Shown one piece after another: positions 12,560-44,744 of a DNA stretch of 64,000 nt. The notes below the pieces were generated by a model. That model did not search any database, was not told the DNA's origin, and saw only the letters and a program-made list of their open reading frames with translations. This stretch comes from Bradyrhizobium japonicum USDA 6 (lineage in GTDB: Bacteria > Pseudomonadota > Alphaproteobacteria > Rhizobiales > Xanthobacteraceae): contig NC_017249.1 of assembly GCF_000284375.1 (NCBI RefSeq), positions 558,001-622,000 of the forward strand, written 5' to 3'. Made by a program: the position numbers and the translations under genes. The first letter of the stretch is position 1. Every line of letters begins with the position of its first letter.

Positions 12560-14317
12560 GTGTCGGTCGCTCAACGCAGACGTATCTCGACGCTGGTGAT
12601 GAACCGCTTCGCGCGGAACATGCTCGCGCGCGCGAGCGGCGGTTCCGTTGCGCTGTCGCGGGTCTGGCCCGGCCGTACCGACCGGCTGATCATCGCGCCG
12701 CATGACCTGCGCACGGCGGATGCGACCCGCGCCGCTGAGATCTATGCCGGCCGCTTCGTCTTCGCCGGCAAGATCGTCAATTGCCACGGCCGCTCGATCT
12801 TCGATCTCGAACCGCCGTCGGAAGACTGGGAGGTCGCGCTGCTCGGCTTCGGCTGGCTGCGCCATCTGCGCGCCGCCGACACCGCGCTGACGCGCGCCAA
12901 TGCGCGCGCGCTGGTCGAGGACTGGATCGCCAACCCCGCCAACAAGCGCCGCGCCGTCGCGCGGCGTGCCGACGTGCTGGCGCGGCGTGTGATCTCGCTG
13001 CTGTCGCAGGCGCCGCTGGTGCTCAACGACACCGACAACAAATTCTACCGCCGCTATCTGCGGGCGCTGGCGCGGGAGATCCGTCTCCTGCGCTACACCA
13101 TGGTCAACATTCCCGACGGGGTGCCGAAGCTCCAGGTGCTGATCGCGCTGTGCTACGCGGCGCTGTGCCTTGCCAACCAGGCGCGACAGATCCGCAGCGC
13201 GTCGAAAAAGCTCTCGGACGAGTTGCAGCGGCAGATCCTGCCCGACGGCGGCCACATCTCGCGCAATCCGGGCGCGCTGATCGAGCTCCTGATCGACCTG
13301 TTGCCGCTGCGGCAGACCTTTGCCGCGCGCAACATCGCGCCGCCGCCGGCGCTGCTCAACGCGATCGACCGCATGATGCCGATGCTGCGCTTCTTCCGGC
13401 ACGGCGACGGCAATTTCGCGCTCTTCAACGGCATGAGCGCGACGCCCTCGGATCTGCTCGCCACGCTGCTCGCCTATGACGACACCCACGGCGCGCCGAT
13501 GGCGAACATGCCGCATACCGGCTTCCAGCGCCTCGACGCCGGCCAGACCACGCTGATCATCGACACCGGCCCGCCGCCGCCGGCCGGCGTCAGCCACGAC
13601 GCCCATGCCGGCTGCCTGTCGTTCGAATTGTCTTCCGGCATCAGCCGCATCGTCACCAATTGCGGCATGCCGACCACGGGCCGCGACAATTGGCGGCCGT
13701 TCGCACGCGGCACCGCGGCGCATTCGACGCTGACCTATCACGAGACGTCCTCATGCCAGTTCGTCGAGATGTCGGCGATGAAGCGCCTCCTGCACGGCTC
13801 GCCCGTCACCAGCGGCCCCGTCGAGGTCGAGAGCTATCGCGAGATCGTTCAGAACGGCACGCTGCTCACGACCTCGCATGACGGCTATCTCGCGAAATTC
13901 GGCGCGATCCATCGCCGCGTGCTGATGGTCGCCAATGACGGCGCACGCATCGACGGCGAGGACACGCTGTCGCCGCCGCAGGGCGGACGCTTCAAGGGCG
14001 CCGACGCGGATTTCGCACTACGCTTCCATCTGCATCCGGCGGTGAAAGCAAGCCGGCTGTCGGATGCCCGCGGTGTCATGCTGGTGCTGCCCAACCGCGA
14101 CGTCTGGACCTTCGAGGCGCTCGACGACAAGGTCGATCTCGAGGACAGCGTGTTCCTGGCCGGCAATGACGGCCCGCGCCGAACCGCGCAGATCGTGATC
14201 CGGCAGGATGCGCGGCAGGCGCCGTCGATCCGCTGGAGCTTCGTCCGCTCCACCGCTTCGCCGGCGGTCACCAATGCCCGCCGCAACGCCCGGCGCGAGC
14301 CGGAACTTCCGCTGTAA
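12560..14317 (+). CDS. Heparinase II/III-like protein
   Basis: 585 aa, GTG start (MSVAQRRRISTLVMNRFARNM). An N-terminal alpha-helical toroid-like region (~60-330) with WLRHLRAADTALTRANARALV and GGHISRNPGALIELLIDLLPLR is followed by a beta-rich C-terminal domain starting near residue 340 (LIIDTGPPPPAGVSHDAHAG, LSFELSSG, STLTYHETSS). This matches the alphaproteobacterial heparinase II/III family. No signal peptide is evident, and the family is usually annotated without a known substrate in rhizobia; a role in polysaccharide or envelope metabolism is inference. It precedes purH, which has its own riboswitch. Confidence 0.83.
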   Translation: MSVAQRRRISTLVMNRFARNMLARASGGSVALSRVWPGRTDRLIIAPHDLRTADATRAAEIYAGRFVFAGKIVNCHGRSIFDLEPPSEDWEVALLGFGWLRHLRAADTALTRANARALVEDWIANPANKRRAVARRADVLARRVISLLSQAPLVLNDTDNKFYRRYLRALAREIRLLRYTMVNIPDGVPKLQVLIALCYAALCLANQARQIRSASKKLSDELQRQILPDGGHISRNPGALIELLIDLLPLRQTFAARNIAPPPALLNAIDRMMPMLRFFRHGDGNFALFNGMSATPSDLLATLLAYDDTHGAPMANMPHTGFQRLDAGQTTLIIDTGPPPPAGVSHDAHAGCLSFELSSGISRIVTNCGMPTTGRDNWRPFARGTAAHSTLTYHETSSCQFVEMSAMKRLLHGSPVTSGPVEVESYREIVQNGTLLTTSHDGYLAKFGAIHRRVLMVANDGARIDGEDTLSPPQGGRFKGADADFALRFHLHPAVKASRLSDARGVMLVLPNRDVWTFEALDDKVDLEDSVFLAGNDGPRRTAQIVIRQDARQAPSIRWSFVRSTASPAVTNARRNARREPELPL

Positions 14318-14381
14318 ACGCGCACGATTCGGCCCCATCTCATCGTTGTGAAAACGGCCGAAAGCTGCTATCGAGCCCTCG

Positions 14382-14453
14382 CTCGCGCGACTGGCGACCT
14401 TGGATGGAGCACCATCGGGAAGCGCGGGATACAGAAGCCGCGCGCCTGGGCAT
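14382..14453 (+). promoter_or_regulatory. ZTP (pfl) riboswitch upstream of purH
   Basis: All hallmarks are readable. P1 is CTCGCGC (14382-14388) paired with GCGCGGG (14422-14428), 7 bp with one G-U. The conserved GACTGGCGA follows P1 at 14389-14397. P2 is GATGG (14403-14407) paired with CCATC (14412-14416), then CGGGAAGCG. The 3' element is CGCGCCTGGGCA (14441-14452), and its CGCC (14443-14446) can pair with GGCG (14393-14396) to form the pseudoknot. ZTP (AICAR triphosphate) builds up when 10-formyl-THF is short; PurH uses both AICAR ribotide and 10-formyl-THF, so the placement fits. The aptamer ends about 30 bases before the start codon. No strong terminator follows, so control may be at translation initiation. 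Confidence 0.87.
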
Positions 14454-14483
14454 AGACACTCCTTAAGACAGAGGATCTTGCTC

Positions 14484-16076
14484 ATGACTGACCATCCCCG
14501 CCGCGTCACCCGTGCTCTTCTCTCCGTCTCCGACAAGACCGGCCTGATCGAGTTCGCAAAGGCGCTTGCCGCGCACGATGTCGAGCTGGTCTCGACCGGC
14601 GGCACCGCCAAGGCGATCGCCGCAGCCGGCCTCAAGGTGAAGGACGTTTCCGAACTCACCGGCTTCCCCGAGATGATGGACGGCCGCGTCAAGACGCTGC
14701 ATCCGAAGGTGCATGGCGGCCTGCTCGCGATCCGCGACAACAAGGAACATGCGGACGCCATGAAGGCGCACGGCATCGCGCCGATCGATCTCCTGGTCGT
14801 CAACCTGTATCCGTTCGAGGCCACCGTCGACAAAGGCGCGGGCTTCGAGGATTGCATCGAGAACATCGACATCGGCGGCCCCGCGATGATCCGCGCCGCG
14901 GCGAAGAACCATGACGACGTCGCCGTCGTGGTCGAGGCCGAGGACTACAAGGCCGTGCTCGACGAGCTCGCCGCCAACAACGGATCGACGACGTTGAAGC
15001 TGCGCCGGCGGCTTGCCGCAAAGGCCTATGCGCGCACCGGCGCTTATGACGCCGCGATCTCGAACTGGTTCAACCGCCAGCTCGAAATCGACGCACCCGA
15101 CTTCCGCGCCTTCGGCGGCAGACTGATCCAGTCGCTGCGCTATGGCGAGAACCCGCACCAGACCGCGGCGTTCTATGCGACGCCCGACAAGCGGCCGGGC
15201 GTCTCGACCGCGCGCCAGCTCCAGGGCAAGGAGCTCTCCTACAACAACATCAACGACACCGATGCGGCCTATGAGTGCATCGGCGAGTTCGACGCCAAGC
15301 GCACCGCGGCCTGCGTCATCGTCAAGCACGCCAATCCGTGCGGCGTCGCCGAAGGCTCCGATCTCGTCAGCGCCTATCGCAAGGCGCTCGCCTGCGATTC
15401 CACCTCGGCTTTCGGCGGCATCATCGCGATGAATCGCGCGCTCGACGCCGACACCGCGCGCGAGATCACAAAGATCTTCACCGAGGTGATCATCGCGCCC
15501 GATGCCAGCGAGGAGGCGATCGCGATCATCGGCGCGCGCAAGAACCTCCGCCTGCTGCTCGCCGGCAGCCTGCCCGATCCGCGCGCGCCTGGCCTCACCG
15601 CCAAGACGGTGGCCGGCGGTCTTCTCGTGCAAAGCCGCGACAACGCGGTGGTCGACGACATGACCTTCAAGGTCGTGACCAAGCGTGCGCCCACCGACGC
15701 CGAGATGCGCGATCTGAAATTCGCGTTCCGCGTGGCAAAACACGTCAAGTCCAACACCATCATCTACGCCAAGGATCTCGCCACCGTCGGTATCGGCGCG
15801 GGCCAGATGAGCCGGGTGGATTCAGCGCGGATCGCGGCGCGCAAGGCGCAGGACGCAGCCAATGAGCTCAAGCTCGCCGAGCCGCTCACCAAGGGCTCGG
15901 TGGTGGCGTCGGATGCGTTCTTCCCGTTCGCCGACGGCATGCTCGCCTGCATCGAGGCCGGCGCCACCGCCGTGGTGCAGCCCGGCGGCTCCATGCGCGA
16001 CGACGAGGTGATTAAGGCCGCCGATGAGCACGGCATCGCCATGGTGTTCACGGGCACGCGGCACTTCAGGCACTGA
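14484..16076 (+). CDS. purH: Bifunctional AICAR formyltransferase/IMP cyclohydrolase
   Basis: 530 aa. Catalyses the last two steps of IMP synthesis in the cytosol. The N-terminal MGS-like cyclohydrolase domain holds [25 protein letters not shown] and [15 protein letters not shown]. The AICAR transformylase domain has [13 protein letters not shown] and the catalytic [12 protein letters not shown], ending with [14 protein letters not shown] and FTGTRHFRH. An upstream ATG at 14400 is rejected because it lies inside the riboswitch aptamer and because [17 protein letters not shown] matches the family N-terminus. Confidence 0.97.
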
Positions 16077-29171: not shown

Positions 29172-29246
<75 letters not shown>

Positions 29247-44529: not shown

Positions 44530-44612
44530 CTCTCCTCCCGGGCGCGGCCTCCTCGGGGGCCGTGTCCACGACTACGGTTTGGGGCACATACCCGGCAATG
44601 TCCCGACCGTTG

Positions 44613-44647
44613 AGGGGCTTCAGCGCAAGCTGAAGCCCCTTTCTTTT
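44613..44647 (+). terminator. Intrinsic terminator after the second amtB
   Basis: Stem AGGGGCTTCAG / CTGAAGCCCCT with loop CGCAAG (44613-44640), followed by TTTCTTTT. A strong rho-independent terminator about 85 bases after the stop. Confidence 0.9.
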
Positions 44648-44744
44648 GGCCTTCTTTGCCCTGCGCGACAAAGAAAGGGATTGCCATTTCAGATTGCCGG
44701 CGCAGAAATATCGACCACAACGAAAAACAAACCGGGAGGTCGTC

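Follow-up and report, generated by a model that had tools for sequence, protein, structure and literature searches.

A leader element of the ZMP-ZTP riboswitch class (ZMP, 5-aminoimidazole-4-carboxamide ribotide or AICAR ribotide; ZTP, its triphosphate) lies ahead of purH in the 64,000-nucleotide stretch of the Bradyrhizobium japonicum USDA 6 genome analysed here (NC_017249.1, positions 558,001 to 622,000; hereafter the window, whose numbering is used throughout). On the model presented below, the purH 5′ leader most probably acts as a single-aptamer ZTP (pfl-class) riboswitch that would switch translation on. Family membership, a hairpin competing with the aptamer, the recurrence of this arrangement in related leaders and its absence from the examined purH leaders that lack the aptamer were computed; from these we infer the ligand, the direction of control and its translational level.

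The aptamer and its gene

A cmscan search matched positions 14377-14458 (+ strand) to RF01750 (ZMP-ZTP) over model positions 1-86 of 86, with 60.4 bits against a gathering score of 39. The expectation value (E) is 7.9e-9 for 2 kb searched with permissive filters and 2.5e-7 for the 64-kb window searched with 4227 families. The matched span is slightly wider than that of an original prediction, made from the sequence alone, which had placed a well-formed ZTP (pfl) riboswitch at 14382-14453 and asked for a covariance-model search against RF01750. The significant score of that search bears the prediction out, and P1, P2, the conserved segments and the 3′ element occur in the described order at the described places, with the pseudoknot possible. 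GACTGGCGA begins at 14389, and CGCCTGGGCA occupies 14443-14452. The aptamer before purH is the only RF01750 match in its own genome. It stands in the leader of a purine or one-carbon/folate gene, and purH was named in 2010 among the target genes of the class (PMC2864571). The element is a member of the known riboswitch class and its annotation as an aptamer is routine; by analogy with the family, the purH leader would sense ZMP or ZTP. The features of the leader are as follows.

14345..14373, + strand: promoter-like block GTTGTG...AAAGCTGCTATCG, probable purH promoter (pattern at 14345-14370)
14377..14458, + strand: ZMP/ZTP riboswitch aptamer, full model (RF01750, 60.4 bits)
14382..14388, + strand: P1 5′ strand CTCGCGC, partner 14422-14428
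14393..14396, + strand: GGCG, pseudoknot half, partner 14443-14446
14403..14407, + strand: P2 5′ strand GATGG, partner 14412-14416
14412..14416, + strand: P2 3′ strand CCATC, partner 14403-14407
14422..14428, + strand: P1 3′ strand GCGCGGG, partner 14382-14388
14437..14439, + strand: P3 5′ strand GCC, partner 14449-14451
14443..14446, + strand: CGCC, pseudoknot half, partner 14393-14396
14447..14452, + strand: UGGGCA, containing the P3 3′ strand (14449-14451); also the 5′ arm of the predicted start-blocking hairpin
14460..14464, + strand: UCCUU, predicted partner of the Shine-Dalgarno sequence (14471-14475) without ligand (minimum-energy folds)
14470..14475, + strand: AGAGGA, putative Shine-Dalgarno sequence of purH, assigned by sequence and position
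14479..14484, + strand: UGCUCA, predicted partner of UGGGCA (14447-14452); its last base is the A of the start codon
14484..16076, + strand: purH, bifunctional AICAR formyltransferase/inosine monophosphate (IMP) cyclohydrolase, 530 amino acids (TIGR00355, PRK00881, PF01808, PF02142)

The gene had been called purH, rightly so, since its 530-residue product scores above the cut-offs of TIGR00355 (687 bits) and PRK00881 (781 bits). It contains PF01808 and PF02142 domains, and the nearest named purH genes among the matches listed are those of Bradyrhizobium (97-98% identical). The sequence fits a purH start at ATG 14484, with 25 bases between the end of the aptamer and the start codon. An in-frame upstream TTG at 14400 falls within the aptamer. 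In addition, the distance from the aptamer core to the ATG, taken modulo 3, varies over 103 distinct aptamer-bearing purH leaders (55, 37 and 11 leaders), indicating that the frame is not kept and that the upstream start at 14400 had been correctly dismissed.

Conservation of the aptamer structure

The aptamer structure was compared in an alignment of 138 distinct aptamers from 159 loci of all gene classes, all found with the RF01750 model, so that the set leans towards the structure. The cells paired in the Rfam structure hold standard pairs in 83% of cases, compared with 31-45% when the partners are slid by 1-3 columns. The original prediction had hinged on conservation of P1 and P2 in related leaders, and the inner pairing of both is kept: the P1 pairs formed by 14383-14388 are paired in 96-100% and the P2 pairs in 99% (the pair 14403-14416 lies outside the Rfam structure and was not counted). 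Changes on both sides with pairing kept are found at 14383-14427 (paired in 100%; TA 59, TG 58, CG 20, GT 1), 14384-14426 (99%; CG 119, TA 13, TG 4) and 14404-14415 (AT 119, GC 17). The pair 14382-14428 is formed in 79%, and only 28-56% of the aptamers form the outermost three P1 pairs of the model (14379-14381). The three inner pairs of P3 are present in 138/138 and its two outer model pairs in 36% and 22%. The GGCG/CGCC pseudoknot is paired and invariant in 138/138, and this invariance leaves no covariation signal. The minimum free energy of the whole leader was dropped as a measure of the aptamer: the plain thermodynamic fold does not outperform shuffled sequences (z = -0.47), a result of little weight given that such folding cannot model the pseudoknot.

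A predicted start-blocking hairpin

At minimum energy, 14445-14489 folds into a hairpin of -13.1 kcal/mol, and the whole-leader fold contains it too. In this hairpin, UGGGCA (14447-14452) pairs with UGCUCA (14479-14484), AGA (14454-14456) with UCU (14476-14478), and UCCUU (14460-14464) with GAGGA (14471-14475). Because UGGGCA contains the 3′ side of P3, the hairpin and the aptamer are mutually exclusive. The mark of start-site sequestration, a helix that hides the Shine-Dalgarno sequence and start codon and is incompatible with an aptamer helix, is thus predicted, and an intrinsic terminator overlapping the aptamer 3′ end, the mark of the terminator type, was not found. The original prediction had likewise seen no clear terminator; the scan of 14000-14700 gave 0 terminator-like sites with 0.5 expected by chance, Rho sites lying outside its scope.

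Most purH leaders carry UGCUC, UGCCC or UGUCC directly before the AUG, so that G-C and G-U pairs keep the pairing. The main run test scored the longest run of pairs between UGGGCAxx and positions -10..+3 relative to the start in 22 distinct purH leaders (drawn from the 103). A run of at least six pairs was found in 19/22 purH leaders with the aptamer, 0/40 orthologous purH leaders without it and 4/265 background starts (Fisher p = 4e-13 for aptamer-bearing against aptamer-less purH, an indicative value only, as it ignores relatedness and the test was chosen after earlier results). The background starts are first ATGs with a Shine-Dalgarno-like word, taken from long open reading frames (ORFs) in twenty 20-kb stretches of the same genome; some of them are not real starts. 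A run of at least five pairs was found in 22/22 aptamer-bearing purH leaders and, counted as distinct pairs, in 7/7 glyA, 2/3 folD and 4/5 folB leaders; the folB miss (L203) was scored from a start that is probably too far upstream. The same run was found in 6/8 leaders of assorted genes, whose starts were set by hand; L115, L175 and L202 were left out of this run test. Within the stricter region -9..-1, runs of at least five pairs were found in 15/15 purH, 7/7 glyA, 6/7 folD and 5/6 folB leaders, compared with 0/16 aptamer-less purH leaders and 7-11% of the background. The stricter region was used first and -10..+3 later, both picked after earlier results were known.

Computed accessibility of the start site showed a similar picture. 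When the aptamer core was withheld from other partners, the mean unpaired probability of -14..+3 rose from 0.28 to 0.46 in the purH leaders (higher in 93/98), whereas it stayed at 0.27 when a control block of the same size was withheld. The purH leader of the window itself opened from 0.20 to 0.46, the glyA leaders from 0.33 to 0.47 and the folD leaders from 0.42 to 0.58. The competing hairpin, the run test and the accessibility change together support the earlier suggestion that the platform may hide the ribosome-binding region.

Several results weigh against a conserved start-blocking platform or soften the case for it. Runs of at least five pairs also occur in 3/40 aptamer-less purH leaders and 37/265 background starts, and six distant glyA-linked leaders (three distinct pairs) that begin with a short-peptide ORF get no further than a run of 4. 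The accessibility change of the folB leaders is small (0.31 to 0.35). In terms of the duplex energy of CCUGGGCA with -14..+3, the background starts (of 265) at least as strong as the distinct leaders amount on average to 10% for purH, 6% for glyA, 6% for folB and 45% for folD, and energies of -9 kcal/mol or stronger are found in 5/16 aptamer-less purH leaders. This energy was rejected as a test of the platform, being confounded by the pairing of CCU with Shine-Dalgarno sequences as well. Since UGGGCA is near-invariant, the blocking helix can show mainly one-sided changes and no true covariation. With 0.5 expected by chance, the absence of terminator matches is weak evidence. Within the aptamer, double-changed pairs number 11 and extra pair types 35, and the slid controls reach 11 and 41; because the covariation counts alone do not beat every slid control, the case for the aptamer by conservation was made on the percentage paired.

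Proposed mechanism and alternatives

The predicted structures suggest the following control. When 10-formyl-tetrahydrofolate (10-formyl-THF) runs short, the PurH substrate ZMP and its triphosphate ZTP would accumulate and, on binding to the aptamer, make P1, P2, P3 and the GGCG/CGCC pseudoknot more stable. The bound aptamer would hold UGGGCA, leaving the ribosome-binding site free for PurH to be made. Without ligand, UGGGCA would pair with 14479-14484 in the hairpin that hides the Shine-Dalgarno sequence and the start codon. Because the aptamer and the start-blocking hairpin compete for UGGGCA, the ligand is expected to turn translation on.

A ZTP riboswitch could instead act on transcription, with the ligand preventing a terminator or a Rho-dependent stop in the leader or in early purH. 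This is unlikely in view of the empty terminator scan, with its small chance expectation and its restriction to sites other than Rho sites, and of the gap of only 25 bases between the aptamer and the ATG; moreover, both the Shine-Dalgarno sequence and the start codon lie within the competing hairpin, which has no U tract after it. The existence of relatives with purH but no aptamer (40 leaders examined) would agree with a leader that is easily lost or replaced and an aptamer that is intact in structure but no longer, or hardly, regulates. However, the core is near-invariant in the 138 distinct aptamers, the pairing of P1 and P2 survives sequence change, and the complement next to the start is retained in leaders with the aptamer but not in those without, so that a non-regulating aptamer appears quite improbable. 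An ORF does begin at TTG 14400, and the element could be a coding artefact of this longer frame or a chance resemblance. The odds of this are negligible given the covariance-model E value for the whole window, the reading frame that is not conserved between aptamer and ATG in the 103 leaders, and the presence in the genus of the same type of aptamer ahead of glyA, folD and folB. Translational control through the start-blocking hairpin remains the preferred explanation of the purH leader.

Distribution among relatives

At least one aptamer match was found in 98/117 genomes of the genus sample. Classed by sequence pattern, the 118 aptamer loci of the genus (the own one included) precede purH (80), folD (14) and glyA (13), with ten unassigned and one (L118) unclassed; nine of the ten unassigned loci begin like FolB, and L115 remained without identity. 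The purH switch is therefore seen at 80 loci and not in all 98 matching genomes. Family models were checked on one example per class (L042 for folB, L004 for glyA and L016 for folD), with the L004 glyA above its cut-off and the L016 folD at E = 7.5e-115 yet below the curated cut-offs shown. In the family sample, 37/248 genomes and 9/47 genera match, and in the order sample 18/297 genomes and 6/122 genera; both samples include members of the genus, and the stricter filters of these larger scans can miss weak matches. In a set of 80 purH loci from named records, two of which were skipped near contig ends, a motif scan found the aptamer in 7/78, all in records named Bradyrhizobium. By the same scan, another record named Bradyrhizobium (L241) has purH without the aptamer.

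Two types of purH leader

The 40 aptamer-less purH leaders were compared with the 103 aptamer-bearing ones (112 loci in a first count, nine of which are repeats). A purH gene was detected in 17 of the 19 genus genomes lacking a match, yielding 16 leaders (L119-L134); the aptamer-less genus leaders were thus drawn from genomes without any match rather than from those with aptamers only before other genes. In the family, purH was found in 59/61 genomes, and among the closest 30 examined, 24 lack the aptamer and six have it.

The two types differ beyond the aptamer. The pattern GTTGTG-N-AA.CTG[CT]TA, at 14345-14370 in the window, is present in 98/103 aptamer-bearing leaders and 0/40 aptamer-less leaders. 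The block at 14345-14373 is a probable purH promoter; a consensus sigma-70 scan found no promoter ahead of purH. Conversely, the pattern GGTTTC.TG.CCG-N-AAACC.TGCTAC (up to 5 mismatches) is present in 28/40 aptamer-less leaders (16/16 in the genus) and 0/103 aptamer-bearing leaders. The corresponding block in L119-L134 and part of L211-L224 contains a partial inverted repeat, GGTTT...AAACC, and is possibly a promoter with an operator.

On a purH tree, the aptamer state is scattered, with 14 changes, at least 11 of which are forced by well-supported branches. The tree was built from the first 420 bases after the start region in 143 rows (154 loci minus a false match, L168, a duplicate, L136, and the nine repeats); it is midpoint-rooted and rests on one short stretch, with a bootstrap that is not fully settled. 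In the closest pairs, which set L034 and L030 (with the aptamer) against L121 and L119 (lacking it), the purH genes share 95-97% identity across some 390 bases, whereas the leaders are 58-60% identical, approximately as random pairs are (61%), and the similarity ends within the first purH codons. Loss of the aptamer by simple deletion is not favoured, as the compared pairs differ throughout the intergenic region, the promoter-like block included. The scattered state on the tree and the dissimilar leaders before near-identical genes suggest a repeated exchange of purH leaders, and whole-leader exchange by recombination fits best for the closest pairs; independent replacement of the leaders may be the alternative. 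We slightly favour the view that purH in this family has one of two old, unrelated leader alleles, a promoter with a translational ZTP riboswitch or a short promoter leader that lacks it, and that homologous recombination breaking within the first purH codons has often exchanged them. Close relatives would then gain or lose ZTP control of purine synthesis as a cassette, with the start-adjacent anti-aptamer sequence travelling along.

Other aptamers and elements

In six loci from another family of the order (L158, L159, L160, L162, L163 and L164), the ZTP aptamer is followed by an ORF of 34-38 amino acids with a common WNR core, mostly RPWNR.LSRDKA. The stop codon of this ORF overlaps the ATG of a glyA-like gene (ATGA, 6/6), and a hairpin-like motif, ATCGCG...GTGAT, was seen by eye to recur in the DNA of the group. 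The arrangement may represent a glyA-coupled leader peptide or an additional RNA element. The idea of a second RNA family in the stretch from the aptamer to glyA was rejected, as Rfam (E up to 1) shows only ZTP aptamers there, plus a sub-threshold match elsewhere in L160.

ZTP aptamers also precede genes for DJ-1/PfpI (L165 and L173), EamA (L161), LysE (L168), PTP-NADK (L157), an ABC transporter (L202), a stand-alone AICAR formyltransferase (L179) and F420_ligase (L189, close to a putative folate gamma-glutamate ligase model without reaching its cut-off); several of these genes have no evident purine or folate role. The aptamer of L202 (G478:C22:33336-33447) is 112 bases long, with a long insertion between P1 and P3. 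L118 (G110:C1:1670753-1670835) is a diverged third aptamer of 44.6 bits with AACTGGAG in place of GACTGGCG, which changes a pseudoknot half; it is possibly decayed or altered in specificity. Elsewhere in the window are a BjrC68 Bradyrhizobiaceae small RNA (44566-44648, + strand, 93.9 bits) and a transfer RNA (29175-29246, - strand).

Relation to known ZTP riboswitches

The window element shares with the RF01750 class the whole aptamer model, the core, P1, P2, P3, the possible pseudoknot and purH as a target. Its aptamer shows no evident difference from the class, and the terminator scan revealed no intrinsic terminator downstream. PMC7266159 reports evidence that the class responds to ZMP and ZTP and that ZTP is a signal of 10-formyl-THF deficiency, and cites Kim et al. 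2015 for the identification of the ligand. According to PMC10085676 and PMC7337938, the terminator-type switches of Clostridium beijerinckii pfl and Thermosinus carboxydivorans have an invading strand that base-pairs with the P3 3′ side, and they are ON switches in which P3 and the pseudoknot are held closed by the ligand. The window leader is alike in these respects. However, its invading strand is the stretch before and including the A of the start codon, and its predicted output is translation. A whole-switch covariation model of ZTP switches, seeded from 187 terminator-predicted sequences and used to search 3458 RF01750 sequences (PMC13273304, as excerpted), may already include translational-type hairpins; a start-codon-blocking ZTP platform is not described in the excerpted text. 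A literature search returned no paper joining ZTP riboswitches with Rhizobiales or Alphaproteobacteria, or ZMP-ZTP with Bradyrhizobium, and translational ZTP switches are not claimed here as undescribed.

The riboswitch itself is confirmed and ordinary; moderate interest comes from the predicted translational platform and from the proposed leader exchange. Of use would be a defined platform acting at translation that mutations can readily test, in a class studied by the cited papers through terminator-type members. The presence or absence of the switch on near-identical purH genes provides natural pairs for assessing the value of ZTP control of purH.
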